Below, piece after piece: positions 301 to 10,059 of a stretch of 56,321 nt of DNA. Position 1 is the stretch's first letter, and each line of letters starts with the position of its first letter. The DNA is from Martelella mediterranea. Lineage in GTDB: Bacteria; Pseudomonadota; Alphaproteobacteria; Rhizobiales; Rhizobiaceae. The stretch covers positions 1-56,321 of the forward strand of contig NZ_JAINWJ010000053.1 of assembly GCF_021021415.1 (NCBI RefSeq), written 5' to 3'. A program made the translations under genes and the position numbers. Under the pieces are notes generated by a model. That model did no database searches and was not told the origin of the DNA. It saw nothing but the letters and a program-made list of their open reading frames with translations.

Positions 301-642
301 AGGCTTTCACCACACTGTTGTTGTGACACTGCCAGCATTGAGAGAGAACAGCGGTCTTGAAGGGAAGCGAACCGCCGACCTCTTAAGTCTCACCTATTTC
401 GTAGACAAAACAAGGTTTAGAGGATCGCGGCGGTTAATAATTCCTTGGTCGGGAGACCACCCCGTCATCGTCGCCCATCGCATTGCGTTTCGGCGACGGG
501 AAATGTCTGGTTGGATCAAATCACTCTGAAGTGTTCGGCGATGGGCTTCACGCCTTCAGCTGTCGCTGTGGCAATCTGGAAACCTGCAGTCGCCGGAAGA
601 GATCCACAAGGCCCTACGTTCACCAGACCTGCATCACCGGCC
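301..642. other. Gene-free stretch between IS remnant and copper promoter
   Basis: About 340 bases separate the transposase remnant from the copper-type promoter. Open frames run through it on both strands, but none has a recognisable product or a convincing ribosome binding site. I see no repeat or RNA structure worth naming. Confidence 0.5.
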
Positions 643-673
643 TTGACCTTCCAGTTGCTGGAAGGACCATATT
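643..673 (+). promoter_or_regulatory. CueR/HmrR-type copper-responsive promoter
   Basis: A TTGACC -35 box (643-648) and a CATATT -10 box (668-673) are 19 bp apart, the over-long spacing that is the hallmark of MerR-family activated promoters. The spacer contains a perfect inverted repeat, CCTTCCAG (647-654) and CTGGAAGG (658-665), separated by TTG. This matches the ACCTTCC...GGAAGG operator of CueR/HmrR copper regulators. It lies 33 bp upstream of the P-type ATPase start, so copper-induced transcription of that gene is the natural reading. No merR-family gene is present in the window, so the regulator must act from elsewhere. Confidence 0.8.
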
Positions 674-705
674 GTGGAAGACCGACATCATCAGGAGGCC
701 ACACA

Positions 706-3189
706 ATGCAGCATTCGCACACCAACCACTGGTCCGGATCCGGCAACGACGGACATGCTGCGAGTGAGACCGTAACGCGCGATCCAGTCTGCGGGATGAC
801 GGTCGAACCGGACGCCGGGAAGCCTTCTGTCGAGCATGATCACCGGCAATTTCACTTCTGCTCGGAAAAATGCCGGGATCGCTTCGCGGCAGACCCGACG
901 GTCTATCTGAGTGCTGAGAATCCGGTCTGCGGCATGTCCGTCGACCGCGCCCGTGCCCGCCACATGGCGAAGCACGGCGGCGAAAGCTATTACTTCTGCT
1001 CCGGCGGCTGCCAGGCGAAGTTCGAGGCGGATCCGGAGCGCTACGCGTCCGGTCCCGCCGAGGCCGAAGCGCAGCCGGAAGGCACGCTCTATACCTGCCC
1101 GATGCATCCCGAGATCGTGCGCGATCACCCCGGAAATTGCCCGAAATGCGGGATGGCGCTGGAGCCGATGACGCCTTCAGCCGATGCCGGGCCCAACCCT
1201 GAATCTGTCGATTTCAAGCGCCGACTGATGATTGCCGCGCCGCTGGCGCTCGCCGTCTTCGCTCTCGAAATGGGCAGCCATCTGGGCCTGCCCTTCGAGA
1301 ACTGGTTCGGCCGCACGCTGTTCGGCTGGCTGCAATTCGCGCTGGCGACGCCCGTCATGGTGATCTGCTGGCCGTTCTTCCAGCGCGGTTGGTCGTCGAT
1401 CGTCAACAAAAGCCCCAACATGTGGACGCTGATCGCGCTCGGAACCGGGGCGGCCTATGTTTTCTCCGTCGTCTCGCTTGTCGCGCCCGGGCTGTTTCCC
1501 GCGGCGATGCGCGACGCTATGGGCATGGCCCCGGTCTACTTTGAAGCCGCCGCCGTCATTCTCGTACTGGTGCTGATCGGCCAGGTGATGGAGCTTGCCG
1601 CGCACGAACGGACGGGCGATGCGATCCGGGCGCTGCTGGATCTCGCGCCGAAGACCGCGCGCAAGGTCACCGACGGCGGCGAGGAGGACGTCCCCGTCGA
1701 AACGCTGCAGGCGGGCGACGTGCTGCGCGTGCGGCCCGGCGAGAGCGTGCCTGTCGACGGCATCGTCATCGAAGGTCGCTCGTCGGTTGACGAAAGCATG
1801 ATTACCGGGGAGCCGGTCCCGGTCGAAAAGAGCGAAGGCGAGCCGGTGACCGGCGGGACGCTCAACAAGAACGGCAGCTTCCTGATGCGCGCCGAAAGCG
1901 TCGGCGCGGAGACGACGCTCTCCCGGATCGTCGACATGGTCTCCAAGGCCCAGCGTTCCCGCGCGCCGATCCAGGCGATGGCAGACCGGGTGGCATCCTA
2001 TTTCGTGCCGGCCGTCGTCGCGGTGGCGGTGATCGCCTTTCTGGCATGGCTGGCATTCGGCCCCTCACCCGCGCTTTCCTATGCCTTTGTCGCGGCGGTT
2101 TCGGTGCTGATCATCGCCTGCCCCTGCGCGCTGGGGCTTGCAACCCCGATGTCGATCATGGTCGCTACCGGACGTGGCGCGAATGCAGGCGTGCTGATCC
2201 GCGATGCGGAAGCGCTGGAGCGCTTTTCAAAGGTCGACGTGCTGGTGGTGAACAAGACCGGCACGTTGACAGAAGGCAAGCCGACGCTCACCGACGCCGA
2301 GCCGCGGGACGGCTTCGACCGCATGGACCTGCTTTCGATTGCGGCAGCGCTTGAGCGCGGCTCGGAGCATCCTCTCGCCGAAGCGATCGTCGCCGGTGCT
2401 CGCGAAGCGGAAGCGCCGGAACGGGAAAGCAGTGATTTCGCTGCCGTCACCGGCCAGGGCGTGACGGGAACGGTCGACGGACGCAGGGCGGCGCTTGGAA
2501 ACGCCGCGCTGATGGAGGCGGAAGGTATCGATGTCATCGCCTTGCGGGAGCGCGTCGCCACGCTTCAGGGCGAGGGCAAGACTGCGATGTACGTCGCCGC
2601 CGATGGCCATGCTGCCGGAATTGTCGCCGTCGCTGATCGCATCAAGGAAACCACCCCGGATGCGATCCGCGCGCTGCACGAAGCGGGCATGCGCATCGTG
2701 ATGGCAACAGGCGATGCCGAGGCAACCGCGAAAGCCGTGGCGCGGACACTCGGGATCGATGAGCTCCATGCCGGGGTGAGCCCGCAGGACAAGCACGACC
2801 TGATCGAGCGCCTGCGCCGCGACGGCCACGCGGTCGCCATGGCCGGCGACGGGGTCAACGATGCGCCAGCGCTCGCGGTCGCTGATGTCGGGATCGCCAT
2901 GGGCACCGGCGCGGATGTCGCAGTCGAAAGCGCCGGCATCACCCTGATCAAGGGCGACCTGACCGGGATCGTGCGCGTCCGTCACCTTGCCGAGGCGACG
3001 ATGGCCAATATCCGCCAGAACCTGTTCTTCGCGTTCGTCTACAACACCGCAGGCGTGCCGCTTGCCGCCGGGATCCTCTACCCCTTCTTCGGCCTGCTGC
3101 TTTCGCCGATCGTCGCGGCCGCGGCGATGAGCCTGTCCTCGGTCTCGGTCATCGGCAATGCGCTGAGGCTGCGGGCGACGAAGCTTTAG
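706..3189 (+). CDS. copB: CopB-type P1B copper-translocating ATPase with Asp-to-Asn change in the DKTGT motif
   Basis: A predicted inner-membrane heavy-metal P-type ATPase of 827 residues. Start ATG 706 has AGGAGG at 693-698; upstream in-frame codons are unlikely to be used. In order: a YHS-like cysteine motif (DPVCGM, about 26-70), a second one (NPVCGM, about 70-112), a heavy-metal-binding YTCPMHPEI...CPKCGM segment (129-155), then eight predicted membrane helices. The metal site CPC is Cys472-Pro473-Cys474. The TGE actuator motif, SEHP motif and GDGVNDAP hinge are all intact. The oddity is the phosphorylation motif: codon 516 is AAC (2251-2253), giving NKTGTLT instead of the invariant DKTGTLT. 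In this family that Asp forms the aspartyl-phosphate intermediate, so the protein as encoded should not transport. The family call is firm; the functional state is doubtful. Confidence 0.93.
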
Positions 3190-3320
3190 GACGGCTCATG
3201 CATCGGGACCCGCAGCACGCCGCGACACGGCCCAAGATCGGCCATGATCGCCCCGCACTGTCTGCTGATCGCCGGTGCGCCGAGGCATTCCGGCGCCGGC
3301 GCACGGCGAATGGGTTGAAC

Positions 3321-3616
3321 ATGGGGTACATGCGGACAATGAGAGCGGCGGTGAAGGCGCTGTGCATTGTCACGGCCATGCTTCTCGGCGTGCTTTCGCC
3401 CTCCGCGGCGAGCGCCGTCACGCATTGCGCAACCTCGCCCGAAACCGCAATCACCCAGGCGCAGCCCGCCGGCGCCCTGCATGACATGGACCGCCGACGC
3501 CGACTTCGGGCCTGCTGACACGCATTGCCAGAAACCTCACCTTCCCCGATCTCTCCTCGCGCCTGAAGGGCCATCCCGTTCCGCCCGATTTCGAGCCTCC
3601 CCGCTCCCTCGCATGA
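3321..3616 (+). pseudogene. Small exported protein of the copper locus, probably frame-disrupted
   Basis: The frame opens with MGYMRTMRAAVKALCIVTA and a hydrophobic signal-peptide-like core ending in ASA, then a short His/Cys-containing stretch, stopping at 3516-3518 after about 65 residues in a run of arginines. The two other plus frames continue sensibly. One reads ADADFGPADTHCQ. The other reads on to SSRLKGHPVPPDFEPPRSLA and stops at 3614-3616, a tail of the kind seen in small periplasmic proteins beside copper oxidases. I infer an ancestral gene of about 100 residues with one or more frame changes near 3489. Possible starts are 3321, 3330 and 3339. It lies between the ATPase and the multicopper oxidase, in the same orientation. 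An intact short lipoprotein-like product cannot be excluded. Confidence 0.4.
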
Positions 3617-3686
3617 ACCGCCGGCCATGCCGGCCATCCTTCATGTGACAATGCCGGTCCGATGACCGGCCATCGGGAGAACGATC

Positions 3687-5135
3687 ATGTATCGCAGACA
3701 ATTCATGCAGAGGCTCGCGCTTGGCGCGGCAGCCTTCGGACCCGGCCTGCCTATCGCCTGGGCCAGCCCCGCGCGGGCGCGGCAGACGCCCATCGACCTT
3801 CAGATCACCAACCGCACGATCGAGGTGAACGGTCAGTCTGCCAGCGTCTTCGGCCTTACCGGGCCCGGCGGCAAGCCCGGCCTCACCCTTGAGGCGGAAC
3901 GCCCGTTCGATGTGCGCCTTGCAAACAACAGCAACGAGGCGACGCTCGTTCACTGGCATGGCCTGACGCCGCCATGGGAGATGGACGGCGTGCCCGACAA
4001 TCCGGCGCCGATGATCGCGCCGGGGGAAGAACGCCGCTACACTTTCCCGCTCGCCGCCGGCGGCACGCACTGGATGCACGCCCATACGCTTCAGGAACAG
4101 AGCCTGCTGGCAGCGCCGCTGATCATCCTTTCGGAGGAAGACAGAAAGGCCGATGTGCAGGACGTCGTCATCCTGCTCCACGACTTCTCGTTCCGTTCGC
4201 CCGAGGAATTGCTCGCCGGCCTGACGAAAGGTGGAAGCGGCCATGGCGGGATGATGGGCGGTCACGCCATGATGATGCAGGGGCAGAACATGTCCGGCAC
4301 GGCGATGCCCGGCATGGCGATGTCCGGAATGCAGATGGACCTGAACGACATCGACTATGATGCCTACCTCGCCAATGACCGGACGCTGGACGATCCGGAG
4401 GTGTTTGCCGTCGACAAGGGCGGCCGGGTGCGCCTGCGCGTCATCAACGGCGCCACCGCCACCAGCTTCACCATCGACGCCGGCACGCTTCCCGGTCGCC
4501 TGGTGGCCGTCGATGGCCAGCCGGTCCAGCCTGTTTCCGGCGCCCGCTTCGGGATTTCGATGGGGCAACGCCTCGACATCATGCTCGACGTTCCGGCCGA
4601 AGGCGGGGCCTTTCCGGTTCTGGCGCTGCGCGAAGGCGCGCGCGAACGGACCGGCATCATCCTGGCGACGCGCGGCGCGACCGTTACCAGGGTATCAGGC
4701 TTCGGGGCGGAAGACGGCCCAGTGCTGGATCTCACGCTGGAAAGCCGGCTTCGCGGCCTTTCCGCTTCAGAAGCCGGCTCCACAACCCGTAGCCATGACC
4801 TCGTCCTTTCCGGCAGCATGTCCGGCTATGACTGGAGGATCGGCGGCGCGGACCAGTTGCGCGCGCGCCGCGGCGATCACATCCGGCTTTCCATGACCAA
4901 CATGTCGATGATGGGACATCCAATGCATCTGCATGGCCATCACTTCCAGGTTGTCGGCATCAATGGCAGGACGCTGGAGGGCGCGGTGCGCGACACCGTC
5001 TATGTGCCGCCGATGGCAAAGGTCGATATCGCGTTTACCGCCGACAATCCCGGCCGCTGGCCCTTCCACTGCCACCACCTCTATCACATGGCGAGCGGCA
5101 TGATGGCCTACCTGGACTACGAAGGGCCGATCTGA
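3687..5135 (+). CDS. Multicopper oxidase, CueO/CopA-like copper-resistance oxidase
   Basis: A 482-residue periplasmic laccase-type oxidase, expected to oxidise Cu(I) for detoxification. The N terminus MYRRQFMQRLALGAAAF carries a twin-arginine export signal, as expected for an enzyme exported folded with copper. All four copper-ligand blocks are present: HWHG (89-92), HWMHAH (128-133), HPMHLHGHHF (from 411) and HCHHLYHMASGM (461-472), with Cys462 and axial Met472 for the type 1 copper. A methionine/histidine-rich insert at about 181-218 resembles the Cu(I)-binding Met-rich region of CueO. The start has GGGAGA a few bases upstream. It follows the P-type ATPase and disrupted small gene, as in many copper-resistance loci, and unlike its neighbours it looks fully intact. 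Confidence 0.93.
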   Translation: MYRRQFMQRLALGAAAFGPGLPIAWASPARARQTPIDLQITNRTIEVNGQSASVFGLTGPGGKPGLTLEAERPFDVRLANNSNEATLVHWHGLTPPWEMDGVPDNPAPMIAPGEERRYTFPLAAGGTHWMHAHTLQEQSLLAAPLIILSEEDRKADVQDVVILLHDFSFRSPEELLAGLTKGGSGHGGMMGGHAMMMQGQNMSGTAMPGMAMSGMQMDLNDIDYDAYLANDRTLDDPEVFAVDKGGRVRLRVINGATATSFTIDAGTLPGRLVAVDGQPVQPVSGARFGISMGQRLDIMLDVPAEGGAFPVLALREGARERTGIILATRGATVTRVSGFGAEDGPVLDLTLESRLRGLSASEAGSTTRSHDLVLSGSMSGYDWRIGGADQLRARRGDHIRLSMTNMSMMGHPMHLHGHHFQVVGINGRTLEGAVRDTVYVPPMAKVDIAFTADNPGRWPFHCHHLYHMASGMMAYLDYEGPI

Positions 5136-5396
5136 AACGGTTCGGGCAGAGGTTCCAACGGGCGCCTCGGTAGATGGGGCGCTCAGACGATGCTGCCGCT
5201 GGTTGCGACGTCCAATGAATCAGATCGCCCGCTTCCTGCAGAGGCGGCGGGCGTCTTGTGCGAATGGTCGCTCGGAAAGCGACCGTCAATGTGGTAAAGA
5301 CGCTGGCGCTGTGCTCAGGGCAGCGCTTGCCACTAAGTTGAATGCCATAGTAACGATAGCGCCAGGTGCACAACCACACCCGCGTCGACCAGTAAT

Positions 5397-5834
5397 GTGG
5401 ATGGGTTGTTCTCACTAGCCGGGCTTTTCGCAATTGCGTTCGTCGCTGCAACAATCCTGCCTGCCCAGTCGGAGGCCGCCTTGGTCGGCTTGCTGGTTCT
5501 CGGCAAGCAATCGCCTGCCCTGCTGATTGTCGTCGCCACGATCGGCAACGTGCTCGGCTCCGCCGTCAACTGGGCACTCGGATGCTGGATCGAGCGGTTC
5601 CGGCAACGGCGATGGTTTCCAGTGAACGAAAAGGCTCTTGACCGGGCGACACGCTGGTATCATCGATGGGGTCGCTGGAGCCTTCTTCTCAGTTGGGCTC
5701 CCGTTGTTGGCGATGCCCTGACCGTGGTCGCTGGCGTGCTGCGCGAACCGATCTGGAGCTTCCTGCTTCTCGTGACGATCGCCAAGGCCAGTCGCTACAT
5801 TGTATTGACGGTCGTTGCATTGGGGGTGCTGTGA
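5397..5834 (+). CDS. YqaA-family (DedA-like) small membrane protein
   Basis: A 145-residue protein starting at GTG 5397. It has hydrophobic segments at about 4-20, 40-62, 93-110 and 118-143, and the motif ATILPAQSEA near the N terminus followed by VVATIGNVLGSAVNWALG, typical of the YqaA branch of SNARE-associated/DedA proteins. These are inner-membrane proteins whose transport function is not well defined. Members are frequent neighbours of metal-resistance genes. Length is close to the family norm of about 140-150 residues. The stop codon overlaps the ATG of a short downstream frame by one base. No clear Shine-Dalgarno sequence is seen before the GTG. Confidence 0.75.
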   Translation: MDGLFSLAGLFAIAFVAATILPAQSEAALVGLLVLGKQSPALLIVVATIGNVLGSAVNWALGCWIERFRQRRWFPVNEKALDRATRWYHRWGRWSLLLSWAPVVGDALTVVAGVLREPIWSFLLLVTIAKASRYIVLTVVALGVL

Positions 5835-6007
5835 TGTGGCAATTGTCCCAGCACATCCCCGCGCTGCGGCGCGACACCTACCTTGCCTGTGCAACTGTAT
5901 CAGTTTGTCTGAAAGCGCATTTGATCGAGCAACCTCTCTGCGTTTCCGCGAAACCGGCCTCGAAGCGGCGGGCTATTGAGCCTTTTTCAGTCGCGCCAAC
6001 TGGCTGA
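5834..6007 (+). CDS. Short hypothetical ORF translationally coupled to yqaA
   Basis: A 57-residue frame beginning MWQLSQHIPALRRDTYLACA. Its ATG shares one base with the TGA of the YqaA gene (TGATG), an arrangement compatible with translational coupling. The product has no recognisable domain, no clear membrane helix and a Pro/Arg-containing tail. It may be a genuine small protein or simply a chance frame in a decaying region. I cannot assign a function. Confidence 0.3.
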   Translation: MWQLSQHIPALRRDTYLACATVSVCLKAHLIEQPLCVSAKPASKRRAIEPFSVAPTG

Positions 6008-6101
6008 GAAATCCTTTAGGCTTTGATCGCCGAAGTTCCTTTTTTTTTCGGGCCGGCGGCGATGGAGGCGCGACGCGCGGAGGAAACCCAGTGGGCGGCC
6101 G

Positions 6102-6320
6102 TCACGTTTTGTCGGTCACATCCACGAGCAGGCGCCCCAACGCCCCAATCAGCATGAAAAAGGAGCCGACGATAAAGAGCCAGACGCCCAGCGTTTTGTA
6201 TTGCTCCAAAGAAGGCAGGAAGAAGATGCTTCCGACGAAGAAGCCGATATTGCCGAGAAGGCCGAGGGAAAGGTGGATCCATCCATATTACCTGACCAGC
6301 GTGCGAATAGGGCTGTTCAT
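6102..6320 (-). pseudogene. YrhK-domain membrane protein, nonsense-disrupted
   Basis: On the minus strand an ATG at 6318-6320, preceded by GGGAGCG, opens a frame reading MNSPIRTLVR, then a TAA stop at 6288-6290, then YGWIHLSLGLLGNIGFFVGS and an IFFLPSLEQYKTLGVWLFIV segment through to a stop at 6102-6104. The post-stop sequence is a textbook YrhK domain: aromatic-W-I/V-H, LGLLGN, a second hydrophobic helix and GSFFMLIGALGR. A single base change, such as AAA or GAA to TAA, would produce this stop, and the rest of the 72-residue frame is undamaged, so inactivation looks recent. YrhK proteins are small two- or three-helix membrane proteins of unknown role. Confidence 0.75.
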
Positions 6321-6626
6321 TGTGCTCGCTCCCTTCAGTTGTGTGTAAGAAAATCAACGCGCATTCGCTAAGCCAGTTCCAGCAAGAACGGGTCCAAGTC
6401 GGCAGCCGCTGGTATGGCGAAACCACTGGTCTCCTGTCAGTCGCTAGCTGGCCCATCTTTGCAAATGGACAGCTTCAGTGATGACACCAAATACAGAAAA
6501 CCCGCGCCTGAGGGCTTCGTGTTCGGTTCACCGGAATGGTCCTCATCTCATGAGGCAAGGCGCCCTGCACAATTGTCTTGACGCCTTGCAGTTGGAGAAC
6601 GCGGGGCAAGCCCGCTTCCTCGCCCA

Positions 6627-6761
6627 TCACTCGGTCTCGATGCCACGCTGACGCAGCCAAGCGCGCATGGCCTCGATCTCCTTCTGCTGCTCGGCAATGA
6701 TATGTTGCGCCAGCGCCATATTGGTGCGATCCGACCCGGCGGCAAGCTGGATGCGGGCCAT
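6627..6761 (-). pseudogene. DUF305 protein, C-terminal fragment only
   Basis: The minus strand encodes DMARIQLAAGSDRTNMALAQ followed by HIIAEQQKEIEAMRAWLRQR and GIETE, ending at TGA 6627-6629. This is the C-terminal helix pair of DUF305 proteins, a copper-locus-associated family normally of 100-200 residues with HHxxA motifs in the missing part. The sequence breaks at the GAC-ATG corresponding to the family VDMAR, immediately next to the 92-bp repeat copy A. About 45 residues remain, without promoter or start signal, so this is a relic. Its presence supports an originally larger copper-resistance locus on this side of the repeat. Confidence 0.65.
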
Positions 6762-6764
6762 GTC

Positions 6765-6856
6765 TGTAAATCTGCATAGGGGTTCTACGCCGATCGGTAT
6801 GATAAGTCTTTGAAAGGGTTAAAGCGTGTGGGGTCCCGGTGTCACGCCGAATGACA
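6765..6856 (-). repeat. 92-bp TGT...ACA element, copy A
   Basis: A 92-bp element read on the minus strand, starting TGTCATTCGGCGTG and ending GCAGATTTACA. The internal core TTTCAAAGACTTATC followed by CGATCGGCGT is shared with copies B (23953-24044) and C (39665-39757). The ends form imperfect terminal inverted repeats, TGTCATTCGGCGT against TGTAAATCTGCAT. One side abuts the truncated aldo/keto reductase and the other the truncated DUF305 gene, so the copy sits exactly at a chimeric junction. It has no coding potential of its own. It behaves like a miniature element or the fused ends of a deleted insertion sequence. Confidence 0.85.
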
Positions 6857-7035
6857 TCAAAGAACGTCATGCCTTGCCGCCAGGCTCTTTCGACGGTCAG
6901 GATGGACCGTTTCATCTCGGTGCCCTCCCACCCGGAAGGCACACCGTCACGGTAAGCAACGCCCCCAAGCGCCCAGCCGCCGAAGCCGATTTCCGACACT
7001 TTCAGGCCGGTCGCTCCCAAGTCCCGATAGATCAT
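6857..7035 (-). pseudogene. Aldo/keto reductase, N-terminal fragment
   Basis: ATG at 7033-7035, preceded by AAGGGA, starts MIYRDLGATGLKVSEIGFGG and runs to RAWRQGMTFFDV. This is the N-terminal strand-helix unit of aldo/keto reductases, where the next residues should be T-A-x-x-Y-G with the catalytic tyrosine. The match ends precisely at the TTTGAT preceding repeat copy A; downstream the frame reads through the repeat into unrelated DUF305 sequence. About 60 of roughly 320 residues survive. It follows tctA1 by about 70 bp in the same direction, so it was probably the last gene of that catabolic operon. Confidence 0.8.
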
Positions 7036-9087: not shown

Positions 9088-10059
9088 TCAGCGCAGCATA
9101 CCTGCGCTATCAATCAAGGATTTGAACTCGGCGTCGACGCTCTCGACGTAGGCCTCGCTCTCCTCCGGCGTAAGGTACCAGCCGCCTTGGCCGCTTTTTT
9201 CAAGGTGAGATTGGTATCCCTTGGAGTCATAGGCAGCCTTGACAGCGTCGGCAAGCACTTGAACCACGTCATCGGGAGTGCCGGCCGGAACCGCGAAGCC
9301 GCGGGACGGACCGAAGATAAAGTCGAAACCCTGTTCGCGGAAAGTCGGCACATCCGGCGCCTTGGGATTGCGGTCTTCGGCTGCGATACCGACCATCTTG
9401 ACCAGACCCGCCCGGGCCATGGAACTGGCCTCGGGCGCACCAGAGCCGGCCGCCACGACTTCGCCGCCGGCAACAGCCTTCAAACCTCCGGCAGTCCCGC
9501 CCTTATAGGTCACGGTCTTCAGCCCCAGGCCGTATTTCTCGTTGAGCGCTTCCCAAGCCCAGTGGTACGCCGTGGCCGGACCGCCGTCGCTGACCTTGGC
9601 GCCGGGGTTCTGCCGCGCCCATTCCACGAATCCTTCGACATCGTCGTAAGGCTGATCGGCCCGGACCGCGATGCCCCAGGCATCGGCGTTCACCATGCCC
9701 AGAAGCCGGATGTCCTCAAGCGGATCAATCCAGGATTCAGATGTTTTCAGGTACTTCTGGATCGCGGCATTCAACGGCAGAAAGATCGCCATGGTGTAGC
9801 CGTCGGGTTCGGCAGCCACCAGCTCCTGCCAGGAGACCAGACCGCCGCCGCCGGGCTTGTTCACCACGACGACCGGCTGACCCAGAACCTCTTCCATTTC
9901 CACGGCGATCTTGCGCCCGATCGCGTCCGTGCCGCCACCGGCTCCAAAACCGACCAGCATCGTGAGCGGCTTTTCGGGATACTCGGCCAGCGCGCTCGCC
10001 CCGCTAAAGGCAAATGCCATGGTGGCTGCCAGCGCCGTCTTCCACGTTCGAAGTGTCAT
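9088..10059 (-). CDS. tctC: TctC-family periplasmic solute-binding protein (system 1)
   Basis: A 323-residue binding protein with a signal peptide (MTLRTWKTALAATMAFAFSG, likely cleaved after ALA) and the family opening YPEKPLTMLVGFGAGGGTDA, followed by VVVVNKPGGGG. It belongs to the Bug/TctC family, which delivers organic acids to TctAB. The first gene of the tctCBA1 operon, it has an ATTGTCAACAAT operator-like site at 10112-10123, about 52 bp before the start. A 97-bp gap separates it from tctA2 upstream, so the two transporter sets can be controlled separately. Bug-family proteins have many ligands; this sequence does not show which. Confidence 0.95.
   Translation of the reverse strand: MTLRTWKTALAATMAFAFSGASALAEYPEKPLTMLVGFGAGGGTDAIGRKIAVEMEEVLGQPVVVVNKPGGGGLVSWQELVAAEPDGYTMAIFLPLNAAIQKYLKTSESWIDPLEDIRLLGMVNADAWGIAVRADQPYDDVEGFVEWARQNPGAKVSDGGPATAYHWAWEALNEKYGLGLKTVTYKGGTAGGLKAVAGGEVVAAGSGAPEASSMARAGLVKMVGIAAEDRNPKAPDVPTFREQGFDFIFGPSRGFAVPAGTPDDVVQVLADAVKAAYDSKGYQSHLEKSGQGGWYLTPEESEAYVESVDAEFKSLIDSAGMLR

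Follow-up and report, generated by a model that had tools for sequence, protein, structure and literature searches.

A CopA-like copper ATPase of Martelella with asparagine at its phosphorylation site: probable recent missense loss in a decaying copper island

Does a copper pump whose gene is open from end to end still work when its phosphate-accepting aspartate has become asparagine, or is it a pump that has been lost? This question is raised by a P-type ATPase gene near the start of the stretch of Martelella DNA analysed here (the window, 56,321 nucleotides). The original prediction offered two outcomes: either the pump died recently while the multicopper oxidase next to it stayed intact, or the protein survives in a metal-binding or regulatory role. 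P-type ATPases share a transport cycle; in the window pump, we infer, Cu+ would normally be passed to the CPC site, ATP would phosphorylate Asp516 and the E1P-E2P step would drive export, with the neighbouring oxidase oxidising Cu+ in the periplasm. With Asn516 no aspartyl-phosphate would form, so that binding of ATP and copper may be kept and cycling would not. The sequence comparisons described below indicate that this CopA-like P1B-1b Cu+ exporter has probably lost catalysis recently through a missense change, within a redundant and decaying copper island, and ordinary gene loss is most likely, rather than a new kind of protein.

The pump is encoded by a single uninterrupted ORF without stops (Table 1), and the motifs and coordinates first reported for it proved correct. 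Codon 516 is AAC, turning DKTGT into NKTGTLT, and the other P-type motifs said to be intact are all present, namely CPC, TGE (residue 367), HP within SEHP (residue 555) and GDGVND (GDGxND); MATGD lies at residue 666, and further motif stretches lie at 472 and 714. Among the sequence hallmarks of an active P-type ATPase, only the phosphorylatable Asp of DKTGT is missing. Pfam models recognised the E1-E2 ATPase (PF00122) and HAD hydrolase (PF00702) domains, two YHS stretches (PF04945) and HMBD (PF19335), and the copper-subfamily model TIGR01511 scored above its cut-off. The long N-terminus has an H-rich start, two YHS domains and HMBD/CPKC, and the membrane region carries CPC in TM6, YNTAGVP (matching YN(X)4P) in TM7 and MSLSS in TM8. 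These features coincide with those given in a section of PMC5552934 for the P1B-1b subtype, which was defined for Rhizobiales as part of group VII and shares an H-rich start, two YHS/TRASH domains, CPKC, CPC, YN(X)4P and MSLSS. By its motifs, the window pump is a P1B-1b Cu+-ATPase of the CopA-like Cu+ exporter type, and it differs from the Rhizobiales P1B-1b enzymes in having Asn for the catalytic Asp. The best solved relative, the copper efflux ATPase of PDB 3rfu (aligned over residues 118-825, E 5.9e-249), has D at the position of N516.

Table 1. Features of the copper island at the start of the window, with positions in the window.
Feature	Positions	Strand	Basis
CueR-type promoter: TTGACC (643-648), CCTTCCAGTTGCTGGAAGG dyad, then CATATTGT (668-675)	643..675	+	sequence
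P1B-1b Cu+-ATPase, 827 aa, catalytic Asp replaced	706..3189	+	Pfam, TIGR01511, motifs
Codon 300 His; Arg in 83/85 homologues, Lys in the other 2	1603..1605	+	conservation, change polarised
Codon 516 AAC (Asn) at the phosphorylated Asp of DKTGT	2251..2253	+	alignments to homologues
Codon 758 Val; Ala in 83/84 homologues	2977..2979	+	conservation, change polarised
Small Cys-containing protein gene remnant, frame lost	3330..3613	+	comparison with relatives
Multicopper oxidase, 482 aa, TAT signal, ORF whole	3687..5135	+	PF07731, PF07732, PF00394
YqaA family (VTT domain) membrane protein, 145 aa, ORF whole	5397..5834	+	PF09335
YrhK family gene, in-frame stop at codon 11	6105..6320	-	comparison with M. 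mediterranea
DUF305 gene, last 45 codons (485 in M. mediterranea)	6630..6764	-	comparison with M. mediterranea

Asparagine at this position was private to the window copy among the homologues compared. A tblastn search of the window protein against 122 loci gave 129 alignments over the position, a figure that includes paralogues and two genes counted twice (L013=L015, L014=L021); 128 carried D, and the single N was the window itself. Across the 13 Martelella genomes compared, including that of the window, distinct orthologues other than the window copy came from nine of the 12 other genomes, the remaining three being without a close orthologue, and all ten of these (84-94% identical, one truncated) carry Asp. 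The same residue stands at the equivalent of position 516 in all 85 wider homologues (80 from genome contigs and five in-genus paralogues).

A search for other homologues carrying Asn, which the original prediction had suggested, was run by DNA pattern over the order and the phylum, and no intact one came to light. NKTGT(L/F)T occurred in two of 397 genomes of the order, the window genome and G209, and the D version of the pattern in 373 of the same 397. The G209 match arose by chance, within a 380-aa ORF for an unrelated protein. The longer pattern NKTGT(L/F)TxG likewise occurred in two of 398 genomes of the phylum, the window genome and G750. The latter match was rejected as an intact ATPase: it sits in a 98-aa ORF, which might be a short ATPase remnant, and tblastn at 1e-3 matched none of nine P-type ATPase ORFs from the window genome to the 14 kb around it. 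No other intact P-type ATPase with the NKTGTLT pattern was found in the 397 order or 398 phylum genomes, two samples that partly overlap and were searched with patterns covering Asn motifs followed by L or F. Among open-library papers, we recognised no natural P-type ATPase with N for D, and NKTGT appeared together with ATPase only in connection with another subject. The passages of PMC6592433 on degenerated P4-ATPase domains in protists concern a different kind of change from an Asp-to-Asn substitution. On the genomes sampled, the NKTGT observation is real and rare.

The functional consequence can be judged from mutants of related enzymes. The Asp of DKTGT is described as the phosphate acceptor of the superfamily in an excerpt of PMC10654040. 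In Drs2p the same substitution as in the window pump, D560N, abolished stimulated ATPase activity and complementation, in a mutant that was also poorly expressed (a passage of PMC4230938), and ATP7B D1027A serves as an inactive control (a passage of PMC12259332). These mutants were made on purpose, whereas the Asn of the window pump is natural. From the inactive catalytic-Asp mutants of Drs2p and ATP7B we infer that the window protein would lack pump activity too; selection on it would now be relaxed.

We took as near-invariant the 217 columns in which conservation among the 85 homologues was 95% or higher, and the window copy breaks three of them, R300H, D516N and A758V, each through a G>A or C>T change. 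The nine other full-length orthologues break one column in all (L023), with none in M. mediterranea and the seven others. When branches were weighted by length, the window branch making up 5.6% of the tree, the occurrence of three or more of the four violations on it had p=0.0007; with D516N left out, because it had prompted the look, two of three remained (p=0.009). When the weights were taken instead from private replacements at columns that are invariant otherwise (76 altogether, of which the window copy has 15, G012 15 and M. mediterranea 11), the clustering was weaker, with p=0.026, or 0.10 without D516N. The window copy does carry replacements at near-invariant sites beyond D516N, as a pseudogene would, and as a sign of decay their clustering is suggestive only. 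Polarisation against four outgroups gave nonsynonymous/synonymous counts of 20/26 for the window copy and 15/15 for M. mediterranea, partial counts from which sites without unanimity among the four outgroups were dropped; six of the 20 polarised replacements of the window copy fall in residues 41-83, in or beside the YHS domains.

Selection on the gene as a whole has been strong. In a codon model fitted with our own script to ten orthologues, the window branch had an omega of 0.092 against 0.071 for the rest of the tree, a difference that was not significant (2dlnL 1.09), and an omega of 1 on the window branch, the value near which a pseudogene would lie, was rejected (2dlnL 85.7). The M. mediterranea branch, whose copy has Asp, gave 0.110, slightly above the window's. 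The pump has been constrained for nearly all its history. The lack of a significant rise in omega on the window branch speaks against long-standing decay, and the low omega means that a loss of the pump, if any, was recent. The likelihood profile of the window branch (2dlnL 3.2 at omega 0.14 and 5.6 at 0.16) leaves at most about 8% of the branch to neutral evolution. For the oxidase, the window branch is very short, with an omega of 0.48 that cannot be told apart from 1 (2dlnL 0.58) or from the background of 0.13 (2dlnL 3.0).

The state of the neighbouring genes bears more strongly on decay. The closest annotated plasmid relative is the island on pMM593 of M. mediterranea DSM 17316 (WP_018066923.1 and neighbours), whose ATPase is 94% identical and whose gene order, pump, small Cys protein, oxidase, YqaA, YrhK and DUF305, is the same. 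In contrast to the window, all of these genes are annotated as whole there and the pump has DKTGT. The pump ORF of the window is itself free of the frame disruptions that mark pseudogenes; the disruptions are in its neighbours. A 67-bp deletion at about 3496/3497 has cost the small Cys-containing gene, which separates pump and oxidase, its reading frame. The protein has 117 aa in M. mediterranea, and the gene was located in five distinct relatives, in each of which its frame is open. Neither this gene nor the oxidase had a match in four further orthologue neighbourhoods or with the truncated G012 copy. The YrhK gene, despite its stop, agrees with that of M. mediterranea at 71 of 72 positions, and DUF305 is cut where similarity to pMM593 ends at 6764, the shared blocks being 419-3496 and 3525-6764. 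A deletion of 67 bp is not what base-calling errors would create, and we consider the damaged neighbours stronger evidence of decay than the near-invariant columns.

Around the 67-bp deletion (3401-3600) the window diverges from M. mediterranea by 15%, against about 2% over the following 200 bp, and the tail of the gene remnant looks, by eye, like the allele of Martelella sp. AD-3. Because of this jump in divergence and the AD-3-like tail, recombination may have been involved near the deletion.

Other parts of the island are in good order. The oxidase next to the pump has a whole ORF, in line with the intact neighbour that had been proposed, and is 85-93% identical over its length to those of five distinct relatives; TIGR01409 scored above its cut-off, and TIGR01480, the model for CopA-type oxidases, matched below its own. 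It is 10 residues shorter than the M. mediterranea protein, with the gap in a Met-rich stretch. The length of this stretch (window 4201-4400) varies among relatives. The YqaA protein is 92% identical to that of M. mediterranea. Upstream of the pump, a CueR-type promoter is kept, which we take to resemble the E. coli copA promoter; in a four-sequence alignment M. mediterranea shares its CCTTCCAGTTGCTGGAAGG dyad exactly, whereas G012 and AD-3 carry it in partly altered form. Two other places in the genome matched the CueR model TIGR02044 above its cut-off. Pfam recognised no family in the small ORFs at 242-529, 3330-3518, 6016-6456 and 6475-7035. A full-length pump ORF, a low omega, a kept CueR-type site and a whole oxidase ORF all count against loss.

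Why might the loss of a copper exporter be tolerated? The same genome encodes a second pump (C31:40389-42845), 61% identical to the window pump and with DKTGT, CPKC, CPC and MSLSS, followed by an oxidase gene (C31:42910-44406), and the DKTGTLT pattern occurs at ten places in the genome. The loss would have been tolerable because of this second copper operon, in which a D-bearing P1B-1b-like pump stands beside its own oxidase, and because of the several other metal ATPases in the genome. Contig C31 forms a metal-resistance region with several P-type ATPases, the pump-oxidase pair and CueR-type regulators. A suspected internal TGA in the paralogue L002 was dismissed, as no stop lies within the alignment (query residues 2-819) and the ORF of 812 aa reads whole. 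In G012, a related species, a 263-kb contig holds a second island copy in which a deletion has fused the ATPase, near codon 553, with the YrhK-DUF305 region, and another pump copy, full length and with D, lies on a different contig. The two matching blocks overlap by 8 bp at this deletion (L132, about 9738-9745). Judging from the window copy and the second G012 copy together, members of the genus seem to have lost a spare pump on at least two occasions.

The possibility that the window pump was recently lost beside an intact oxidase is the one of the two original outcomes that the analysis supports, through the private Asn, R300H and A758V, the three damaged neighbours, the whole oxidase ORF and a second pump-oxidase pair with Asp. 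The other outcome, that the protein lives on in a metal-binding or regulatory role, found no positive support; the full-length ORF and purifying selection over most of the branch leave some room for it but also fit a very recent loss. In its fullest form it would make the protein a membrane copper buffer or sensor that does not transport and holds copper through its YHS, CPKC and CPC sites. We regard such a retained protein as unlikely. The open frame, the recognisable YHS and HMBD domains, the preserved CueR-type site and strong purifying selection over most of the branch would agree with it; however, the variant is confined to a single genome, with no other intact ATPase matching the N pattern in either genome sample, the near-invariant residues 300 and 758 have changed, the three genes beside it are damaged, and the six replacements in residues 41-83 lie in or beside its YHS domains. 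The time preceding a recent loss accounts for the selection signal. The more specific proposal of a transporter pseudoenzyme, a dead P1B-ATPase whose expression is induced by copper and which is kept as a buffer or sensor beside a working oxidase, is decidedly unlikely.

There is also a slim chance that the organism really has Asp and that the A in codon 516 is a base error, as the difference is a single base in one draft assembly of 106 contigs. Base errors in such draft assemblies are rare, and one wrong base would explain neither the 67-bp deletion, the truncation and the stop in the neighbouring genes nor R300H and A758V. It is very improbable that Asn516 is compatible with pump activity, a reading favoured by nothing more than the intact ORF and opposed by the Asp of all 85 homologues, by the role of this residue as phosphate acceptor across the superfamily (PMC10654040, in the excerpt cited) and by the inactive Drs2p D560N mutant (PMC4230938, in the passage cited). 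Rescue, whether by A-to-I editing at the first position of codon 516 or by deamidation of Asn to Asp in part of the protein, is barely credible. A strong RNA hairpin is predicted at window 2233-2270 (-25 kcal/mol, z -5.0), and codon 516 does sit in its loop, but the known bacterial editor TadA needs UACG according to a passage of PMC12255301 and the context here, GAAC, departs from that motif at all three flanking positions. In nine D-bearing orthologues the folding energy ranges from -13.4 to -24.8 kcal/mol and the stem is uneven; by eye, the hairpin follows from the near-palindromic GC-rich coding of VDVLVVDKTGTLT. Editing was rejected on the motif and the uneven stem.

In summary, recent missense loss in a redundant copper island remains our preferred explanation for the window pump. 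Its gene passes ordinary annotation, being full length and matching its family models, yet should not work, and copper tolerance predicted from gene content would be an overestimate here. A missense loss at a catalytic residue can be recognised from the conservation of one codon together with the state of the neighbouring genes. Should the protein prove to have been kept after all, nature would have provided a parallel to the dead mutants made in the laboratory.
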